Source: Hyphomicrobiales bacterium (lineage in GTDB: Bacteria; Pseudomonadota; Alphaproteobacteria; Rhizobiales; Devosiaceae). Taken from it: a stretch of DNA of 64,000 nt. Where the stretch lies: the NCBI GenBank assembly GCA_900470445.1, contig UCAU01000028.1, positions 124,196 through 188,195 on the forward strand, in the 5' to 3' direction. The notes beneath the pieces were generated by a model. That model made no database searches and was not told where the DNA came from. It was given only the letters and a program-made list of their open reading frames with translations. Shown piece by piece: positions 59,489 to 61,320 of the stretch (its first letter is position 1; every line of letters starts with the position of its first letter). The position numbers and the translations under genes were made by a program.

Positions 59489-59504
59489 TTAACCGACCCT
59501 TAAC
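59489..59504 (+). promoter_or_regulatory. perfect CtrA box upstream of the MipZ genes
   Basis: TTAA (59489-59492), seven bases, TTAAC (59500-59504): an exact match to the full CtrA site TTAA-N7-TTAAC. It lies 56 bases before the first MipZ ATG, the distance expected for a site over the -35 region. The GANTC site for CcrM was not found in this promoter. Confidence 0.7.
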
Positions 59505-59559
59505 CATGCGGGTTCGATGTGTTGATCAAGAGTTAATCGTTCCTGATTTGGAGACGGCG

Positions 59560-60387
59560 ATGGGGCAGGGGGCACATGTCATTGTGGTGGGCAATGAGAA
59601 AGGCGGGTCGGGGAAGTCGACCACGGCGTTTCACCTCGCCATTTATCTGATGCACCATGGCTATCGCGTCGCCACCATCGATGTGGACAGCCGCCAGCAG
59701 ACCTTTACCCATTATGTGCGCAACCGCCGCGCCTGGACGCGGGAGCGGGGCCTTAATGTGCCCAATCCCAAGCATTTCCATCTGCCGACTGCCTGGGGCG
59801 ATTCGATCAAGGACAATCAGCAGGCCGAGCTGGCGGTGTTCCGCAAGGCGATCGCCGAGGTGGATGGGGCCGTCGATTACCTGGTGATCGACACGCCTGG
59901 CTTTGACACCAATCTGACGCGGCTGGCCCATACCATGGCCGATACGCTAGTGACCCCGCTCAATGACAGCCTGATCGATCTGAACGTGCTGGCGCGGGTG
60001 GACCCCGAGACGAACGAGCCGGTCGAAACCAGCCATTATGCACGGCTGGTGCAACGGGCGCGCTCGGAACGGCTGGCGGCCGATGGCAAGACTATCGACT
60101 GGGTGCTGGTGCGGAACCGCATTTCCATGCTGGGCTCGCGCAATGCCAATCAGGTGCATGCGACACTGGAGCGGATCGGCACGCGCTTTGGCGCCAGGGT
60201 GGCCGATGGCATTGCCGAGCGGGTGATCTTTCGCTCGCTGTTTGCCAGCGGCATGACGGTGTTTGATCCGCTGGAGGAGGTCGCGCTGGGCGGCGCGCCG
60301 TCGATGTCCCATGTCAGCGCGCGACAGGAATACCGCAATTTGGTATCGGCGCTGCAATTGCCGGTGCGGCAGCGGATGGCCGCTTAG
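59560..60387 (+). CDS. mipZ: MipZ-type division-plane positioning ATPase, paralogue 1
   Basis: 275 residues from MGQGAHVIVV at 59560; the frame opens at 59506 but a GAGACGG Shine-Dalgarno supports 59560. The deviant Walker A KGGSGKS is at 14-20 after VVGNEKGG. DVDSRQQTFTHYVRNR and VIDTPGFDTNLTRLAH match MipZ. MipZ forms gradients from ParB-marked poles and blocks FtsZ, thereby placing division mid-cell. A second copy follows after 93 bases. Confidence 0.93.
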   Translation: MGQGAHVIVVGNEKGGSGKSTTAFHLAIYLMHHGYRVATIDVDSRQQTFTHYVRNRRAWTRERGLNVPNPKHFHLPTAWGDSIKDNQQAELAVFRKAIAEVDGAVDYLVIDTPGFDTNLTRLAHTMADTLVTPLNDSLIDLNVLARVDPETNEPVETSHYARLVQRARSERLAADGKTIDWVLVRNRISMLGSRNANQVHATLERIGTRFGARVADGIAERVIFRSLFASGMTVFDPLEEVALGGAPSMSHVSARQEYRNLVSALQLPVRQRMAA

Positions 60388-60480
60388 GCTCTGCCTGTTC
60401 AGCAATATTTGTAACAGAACCACCCTTGCCCGGTGGCGCGAAACACTGACACTTGCCGGACGTAGTAGGAGTGATTTGCC

Positions 60481-61320
60481 GTGCGACAGGGCCCGCATGT
60501 CATCGTCGTCGGCAATGAGAAGGGCGGGTCGGGCAAATCGACTACGGCCTTTCATCTGGTCATCTACCTGCTTTACCAAGGCCATCGGGTCGCTTCGATC
60601 GATGTGGACAGCCGCCAGCAGACCTTCACCCATTATGTGCGCAATCGGCGCGACTGGGCCAAGGCGCATGGCCTGAGCCTGCCCCATCCCACCCATTTCC
60701 ACCTGCCATTGGCGCAGGGGGATTCGGTGAAGGAAAATCACGGCCGCGAGTTCGAGATGTTCCGCCAGGCGATTGGCGAAGTGGACGATGACACCGATTT
60801 TTTGGTGATCGACACGCCGGGCTTCGACACCAATCTGACGCGGCTGGCGCATTCGCTGGCCGATACGCTGGTCACCCCGGTCAATGACAGCCTGATCGAT
60901 CTCAACGTGCTGGCGCAGATGGACCCGGTGACGGGCGCGCCGCGCGAGATGAGCCATTATGCCCGGCTGGTGCAGCGAGCCCGCTCGGAGCGCCTGGCCA
61001 TCGATGGCAAGACCATGGATTGGGTGCTGGTGCGCAACCGCATCTCGATGCTGTCTTCGCGCAGCATGCGGCAGGTGCAGACCATGCTGGAGCGGATCGC
61101 TGCCCGTTTCGGCTGTCGCGTCGCCGAGGGCATTGCCGAGCGCGTGGTGTTCCGCTCGCTGTTTCCCATGGGCCTAACCGTGTTCGACCCGCTGGACGAA
61201 ACGCTGCTAGGCGGATCGCCATCGCTGTCGCATGTGGGCGCGCGCGAGGAATATCGCGCGCTGGTGTCGGCACTACATCTGCCGGTCAAAGCCCGAGCCA
61301 AGGTGTCCGCCGAGGGGTAA
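60481..61320 (+). CDS. MipZ-type division-plane positioning ATPase, paralogue 2
   Basis: 279 residues with a GTG start at 60481. It repeats the paralogue-1 plan: VIVVGNEKGGSGKSTTAFHL, DVDSRQQTFTHYVRNRR, LVIDTPGFDTNLTRLAHSLA, LVTPVNDSLIDLNVLAQMD and a C-terminal HVGAREEYRALVSALHLPV. The two differ throughout, so the duplication is old rather than recent. Both keep the ATPase motifs. The 93-base gap contains no clear CtrA box, so it may share the upstream promoter. Confidence 0.92.
   Translation: MRQGPHVIVVGNEKGGSGKSTTAFHLVIYLLYQGHRVASIDVDSRQQTFTHYVRNRRDWAKAHGLSLPHPTHFHLPLAQGDSVKENHGREFEMFRQAIGEVDDDTDFLVIDTPGFDTNLTRLAHSLADTLVTPVNDSLIDLNVLAQMDPVTGAPREMSHYARLVQRARSERLAIDGKTMDWVLVRNRISMLSSRSMRQVQTMLERIAARFGCRVAEGIAERVVFRSLFPMGLTVFDPLDETLLGGSPSLSHVGAREEYRALVSALHLPVKARAKVSAEG

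Follow-up and report, generated by a model that had tools for sequence, protein, structure and literature searches.

MipZ and CtrA in described systems

MipZ keeps the division machinery off the wrong places in the cell, as a monomer that binds ParB and as an ATP-bound dimer that inhibits FtsZ, and it does so by forming a gradient. For Caulobacter crescentus, mipZ is called essential and is described as a CtrA-bound, cell-cycle-regulated gene with a CtrA half motif at the -10 region of promoter P2 and a constitutive promoter P1, in the part of that study on which we draw (PMC4287350). CtrA likewise acts on genes of Z-ring placement, namely minCD in Sinorhizobium and both mipZ and ftsZ in Caulobacter.

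Two MipZ-like proteins in one cell also have a precedent, in Magnetospirillum, which belongs to a different alphaproteobacterial lineage. In the account given in one section of a review, MipZ1 of Magnetospirillum gryphiswaldense makes the gradient and MipZ2, found at the division site, has a minor effect (PMC7022226). A first-pass annotation of the DNA described below took MipZ to be normally single, which is too strong a statement in the light of this reported pair. With respect to CtrA, ChIP-seq in H. neptunium gave the consensus TTAA-N7-TTAAC, and mipZ is not a CtrA target in the portion of that report considered here (PMC7200025). Searches of the open-licence literature found nothing that links MipZ with Devosia, and nothing on Devosia with CtrA and asymmetric division.

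Here we analyse a stretch of 64,000 nucleotides (the window) with two adjacent mipZ genes, mipZ-A and mipZ-B, behind a CtrA-type box. Caulobacter has one gene with two promoters and a half motif, whereas here there are two genes and a full box on A; compared with the other CtrA-controlled genes of Z-ring placement, the exact box stands on one of two paralogues. The arrangement is real, old and well conserved, and pairs the canonical MipZ with a second one whose expression is probably timed by CtrA.

Two intact MipZ genes behind a CtrA-type box

Both genes are intact (Table 1), as the first-pass annotation had it, and both match the MipZ family profile PF09140 at 321 bits (321.4 for mipZ-A and 321.7 for mipZ-B, model positions 1-261 of 262), the next-best match in a profile search of their own genome being 37.4 bits. 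Caulobacter MipZ (PDB 2xj4) is matched nearly full length by mipZ-A (E 1.7e-56) and mipZ-B (E 1.3e-58), and ParA/Soj chains match them only at E 3e-7 or worse. The PF09140 scores and the 2xj4 matches rule out that one copy is a ParA or MinD, the grouping that the annotation had held against its own reading, and both are true MipZ.

Of 270 aligned residues, 198 are identical between the two proteins, and the ATPase motifs, said to be kept in both, are indeed there, with K13, G14, K18 and D42 present in each (KGKD in both window copies). These positions represent the deviant Walker A motif with its signature lysine (K13, G14, K18) plus D42 (PMC3355305), and with R194 and R221 they are shared by both copies with the Caulobacter protein (PDB 2xj4, 2xit, 2xj9). 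Both genes evolve under purifying selection, with dN/dS of 0.04-0.12 for A and 0.04-0.18 for B over 12 species pairs. A plasmid search with mipZ-A gave only matches of less than 60 percent identity. The window corresponds to 124196-188195 of contig C43 in genome G000. This genome also encodes ParB (two matches) and CtrA, the latter at 85 percent identity over residues 1-201 (E 1.5e-111) to a Caulobacter CtrA query.

Table 1. Features of the mipZ locus (positions in the window) and related loci in the genomes compared
Feature	Position or locus	Strand	Description
CtrA-type box TTAA-N7-TTAACC	59489..59505	+	TTAACCGACCCTTAACC; exact match, 54 bp before mipZ-A
Second TTAA-N7-TTAA-like site	59522..59536	+	7-of-8 match, at -68
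Leader / ribosome-binding stretch	59544..59553	+	TGATTTGG, continuing into GGAG directly ahead of the start codon
mipZ-A	59560..60387	+	ATG start, 275 aa; CtrA-box paralogue without C-terminal tail; intact
RNANQ codons of mipZ-A	60139..60153	+	Aligned to Caulobacter R194-R198; R194 kept, R196, K197 and R198 replaced
A-B intergenic stretch	60388..60480	+	Without TTAA-N7-TTAA; CCCTTGCC, remnant of a B-type promoter
mipZ-B	60481..61320	+	GTG start, 279 aa; canonical copy in the family's syntenic slot; intact
Exact-box loci (TTAA-N7-TTAACC)	L205, L206, L207, L194		hemE/maf (L205), gcrA (L206), flgB/fliO (L207), tadE (L194)
MipZ-C loci	L115-L133 without L124 exceptions, L112, L135, L179-L185		Unlinked, boxed promoter
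Clean mipZ loss loci	L318, L320, L319		G002 and G030 (L318, L320), G101 (L319)

The likely start of mipZ-A is at 59560, because the alternative upstream ATG at 59506 would stand one base behind the box, and because the N-terminus of the relatives begins at 59560. An exact TTAA-N7-TTAAC at mipZ-A, as first annotated, is confirmed, and it is the only such site in the window (two matches, since it reads on both strands), where shuffled sequence gave a mean of 0.07 and two or more matches in 1 of 100 shuffles. No -10 element was pinned down.

Three MipZ types and the age of the pair

The comparison covered 158 MipZ genes, from 71 of 75 genomes of the genus (Devosia) and from the 34 of 56 other family genomes that have MipZ. 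These genes fall into three types: the canonical B, A upstream of B, and C, an unlinked kin of A. Types were assigned by hand from a quick tree of 155 genes plus Caulobacter, which left out G072 (truncated) and the A genes of G053 (with stops) and G014 (cut short); the latter two, broken or cut in their assemblies, were assigned to A by position and are counted among the 30 A genes. A careful tree used 103 of the 158 genes, thinned by hand after the first tree had been seen. In the careful tree, A and C together form a clade with support of 99/90 and C one with 100/100; B is not one clade in either tree. The window's own A groups with C at 69/85, and a single clade of all A genes was not rejected (p 0.41). 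G040, G056 and G062 each have a single gene that groups with A and C (100/99 in the careful tree, from which G062 had been thinned out). These three genes are counted as B here for their B-like position and tail; they have no exact N7 box.

By gene content, the 75 genus genomes divide into those with A+B (17), A+B+C (9), A+C (2), A only (2), B+C (10) and B only (30), plus one with a broken single copy (G072) and four with none. MipZ-C is also present in six Pelagibacterium-type genomes. Completeness is 55-93 percent for G053 and for three of the four MipZ-less genus genomes, and 99 percent for the fourth (G025).

At all 34 loci from other genera, MipZ is preceded by a DUF1489 gene, mostly with mgtE and a glutathione S-transferase (GST) gene before it, and is usually followed by a small ORF and a SPOR-domain carboxypeptidase gene. 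Within the genus, all 26 genomes with both A and B have them on one strand, A upstream; the two adjoin in 22 and are 0.7-1.7 kb apart in four (G038, G023, G013, G014). G038 has a weaker GST match between A and B. Alone, A occupies the slot in the four genomes that lack B (G009, G029, G050, G065), of which G029 is one contig and 99 percent complete. Among the loci with B and no A, 17 of 40 have none of the window's left-hand neighbours within about 5 kb, so B or its surroundings moved in that group.

A recent duplication in the window's lineage was rejected, as the tree that makes its own A and B sisters gave a p-AU of 0.0004. Together with the synteny, this indicates an old tandem duplication followed by losses of A or B, and it answers what the first-pass annotation had left to a tree, in that this is an old, syntenic pair. 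An alternative to this history of duplication and loss is that A was gained later. There was no clear sign of gene conversion keeping A and B alike: the fraction of identical codons between A and B was 0.643 within a genome (24 genomes) and 0.617 between genomes, with a few genomes (such as G001 and G037) higher. The corresponding fractions for A-A (0.634) and B-B (0.636) are similar to these, so synonymous sites are near saturation.

A predicted CtrA element that goes with A and C

The promoters separate the types. An exact box lies within 315 bp upstream of all 30 A genes, its second half always TTAACC, and its position relative to the GNEKGG codon is fixed at -99 to -105, which puts the end of the box ~49-55 bp from the start codon. 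All ten bases of the box are invariant in the 30 A genes, none left out; the 20 columns upstream of the box have a mean conservation of 42 percent and at most 60 percent, and columns directly downstream are partly conserved, up to 93 percent. Random 315-bp stretches of the same loci contain an exact site in 1.3 percent of cases. The second, 7-of-8 site was found among A genes in the window's own clade only (G000, G067, G035, G074, G053).

No exact box was found in any of 99 B genes (0/26 behind A, 0/39 in front position in the genus and 0/34 in other genera), where one-mismatch sites number 7, 17 and 12, respectively; these promoter counts omit G072 and the B gene of G049, in which the motif was not found. 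Among C genes the box is exact in 7 of 27, and 19 more have TTAG-N7-TTAACC in the same place, so that TTA[AG]-N7-TTAACC covers 26 of the 27; the last has TTAT. The neighbours of C vary among genomes, with few shared and none beyond four loci (three loci against 27), and the box is kept, so box and gene travel together. As judged from these alignments, the box upstream of mipZ-A is a conserved predicted CtrA element going with A and C and not with B. The leader TGATTTGG occurs within 120 bp upstream of 29/30 A genes, 22/27 C genes and, in the genus, 24/39 B genes in front position, against a background of 0.4 percent.

The first-pass annotation placed both genes behind one shared promoter region. 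The box is there, but a single common promoter is not upheld, as B often keeps a promoter-like stretch of its own. Of the 26 B genes behind A, 12 have an array of TTAA half-sites at N4-N6 spacing, against a background of 0.3 percent, and 17 have a CCTTGC/CCTTGT element, against one of 8.7 percent. B also keeps elements of its own in the four genomes in which it lies 0.7-1.7 kb from A. The window's clade has lost the TTAA half-sites before B. Front-position B genes show a TTAA-N6-TTAA variant in 10 of 39. From this variant and the TTAA-N4..6-TTAA array, it follows that B may answer to CtrA too, in a different way. The contrast is thus between an exact, fixed N7 box on A and a loose array or nothing on B.

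The candidate CtrA regulon of the window's genome

Genome-wide, TTAA-N7-TTAACC occurs at 14 sites, compared with 4 for a backward-read control. One of the 14 is that of mipZ-A, and four of the 13 others lie at gcrA, flgB/fliO, tadE and hemE/maf. In Caulobacter, CtrA sites lie at the origin close to hemE, and CtrA controls gcrA along with genes for flagella and pili. The ORFs that flank the four sites here fit CtrA, and these sites would be part of a small predicted CtrA regulon. Eight of the nine remaining exact sites flank genes without an evident tie to CtrA, namely, by family, GGDEF, SLT, an outer-membrane barrel, hrcA/rph (RNase PH), a hydrolase, an aminotransferase, a polysaccharide deacetylase and an ORF without a family.

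Differences between the proteins

A and B are told apart by 15 alignment columns, each of which separates them at a level of at least 70 percent. For example, Caulobacter position 78 is W in 28/28 A and 27/27 C genes versus R in 55/64 B genes, and further substitutions of the A and C types are found at positions 95, 196 and 202. The C-termini differ as well: a tail that extends at least 25 residues beyond position 264 occurs in 56/67 B genes of the genus and 29/34 B genes from elsewhere in the family (F.H[MLIV] motif in 41 and 17, respectively), but in 0/30 A and 3/27 C genes, and a short LSA-type end, defined by a loose pattern, in 24/30 A and 25/27 C genes. The window's own copies have neither the LSA-type end (A, 60352-60387) nor the longer tail (B, 61273-61320), both lost in its clade.

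The DNA-binding patch of Caulobacter MipZ consists of R194, R198 and R221 plus R196, K197, R219, L237, R242 and L248; the R194A, R198A and R221A variants hardly bind DNA and K197A binds weakly, according to the part of that work used here (PMC7229837). Positions 194-198 read RNANQ in the window's A and RSMRQ in its B, and R221 is kept in both, so R196 and R198 differ in both copies and K197 differs in A; 198 is Q and 196 and 219 are non-basic in both, and 197 is R in B and N in A. Basic residues at 196, 198 and 219 are likewise missing from the family's canonical B genes, which argues that the patch differs clade-wide. Since Q198 is common in genus B (66/67), only the N at 197 distinguishes the patch of the window's A. 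A basic residue (R or K) stands at 197 in 25/30 A, 66/67 genus B and 0/27 C genes, and six C genes have lost R194 (H or N instead). With a neutral position 197, the window's A may bind DNA less well.

Loss of mipZ and the wider order

In G002, G030 and G101 the mipZ slot is empty, as only 34-64 bp separate DUF1489 from the small ORF, behind which lies the SPOR carboxypeptidase gene. At E 1e-8, no MipZ-family match was found in G002 and G030, and G101 had one weak match of 37 bits; MinE was not found in G002 and G030. MipZ is also absent from G025 and G103. Replacement of MipZ by a Min system is ruled out, since MinE occurs in only 1 of 75 genus genomes (G022, at G022:C23:24474-24674), and there besides a B-type MipZ. 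Because MipZ is absent in some relatives, its timing cannot be vital to the whole genus.

Among 199 sampled genomes of the order (95 percent complete or more), MipZ at E 1e-40 was found in 30, and 3 of the 21 outside the family have two copies, one of them (G186) in tandem. The G186 pair (G186:C1:2239043-2240797, L217), from another family, has its starts 966 bp apart on one strand, and no TTAA-N6/N7-TTAA lies within about 200 bp upstream of either gene, even with one mismatch. No exact box was found upstream of 16 MipZ genes at 15 of the 21 order loci outside the family, in a scan whose motif missed six loci and from which the second copies of G272 and G290 were left out; 2 of the 16 have a one-mismatch site (G185 and G146).

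A second MipZ under predicted cell-cycle control

We favour, with modest confidence, the reading that mipZ-A is an old duplicate and a CtrA-timed second MipZ, and that mipZ-B is the ancestral baseline copy. According to this proposal, B would be the family's ancestral MipZ in its ancestral place, and A an old tandem duplicate of it that is still a full MipZ ATPase, has lost the C-terminal tail, and would have gained or refined a CtrA box at a constant distance of about 50-55 bp upstream of the start codon. Given this fixed box, A would be transcribed, or held off, by phosphorylated CtrA, and B would run on its own promoter without an exact box, in the window's clade perhaps also by read-through from A. 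Each cell would thus contain a baseline of MipZ plus a second dose timed by the cell cycle, which would change the strength of the ParB-seeded, FtsZ-inhibiting gradient in cells with active CtrA (G1 or late predivisional). We infer here the binding of CtrA and its sign, the timing and the mixed dimers, and A is presumed to inhibit FtsZ and to bind ParB.

It is also conceivable, if unlikely, that A and B are equivalent and that the box does no more than increase the total amount of MipZ while CtrA is active. Either copy would then suffice, so copies would come and go, and it is consistent with such redundancy that A stands without B in four genomes, that B stands without A in 40 of 75 (30 with B only and 10 with C), and that the catalytic positions, R194 and R221 are kept in both. 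However, the box has not drifted in any of the 30 A genes, the 15 separating columns (including W versus R at 78) set the two proteins apart, and A has lost the tail.

A division of labour as in Magnetospirillum, in which one copy makes a bipolar, ParB-dependent gradient and the other acts at the division site or on other cargo, strikes us as rather improbable. The MipZ1/MipZ2 precedent, as far as the review covers it (PMC7022226), and the A and C substitutions at 78, 95, 196 and 202 speak for it, as does the lack of a basic residue at 197 in all 27 C genes and the window's A, a position where K197A weakens binding in the Caulobacter data cited (PMC7229837); yet position 197 is R or K in 25 of 30 A genes, and some genomes live with A alone.

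That the box serves another regulator or the divergent GST gene and is irrelevant to mipZ-A is very improbable, since, although the site is a sequence-based prediction for CtrA and lies between divergent genes in the window, the window's GST gene precedes A at only 4 of 30 A loci (the window, G074, G035 and G053) and the box at all 30, C carries the box at other genomic places, and the same motif stands at gcrA, flgB/fliO and hemE/maf.

Two MipZ proteins with split roles and the action of CtrA on mipZ were already known, and the position-fixed box on the A-type promoter is new. If mipZ-A is indeed a CtrA-timed second MipZ, it is possible, though we would not count on it, that in Devosia the baseline and CtrA-timed proteins mix in one gradient whose composition follows the master regulator, and that the CtrA-timed type, A with its unlinked relative C and its promoter, can do all the work of MipZ, as in the genomes without B. 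A single genus with zero to three MipZ genes and a strictly conserved predicted CtrA box on one type, together with relatives in which mipZ was cleanly lost, offers a natural series (A only, B only, A+B, A+B+C, and none without MinE) for relating cell-cycle transcription to the placement of the division site.
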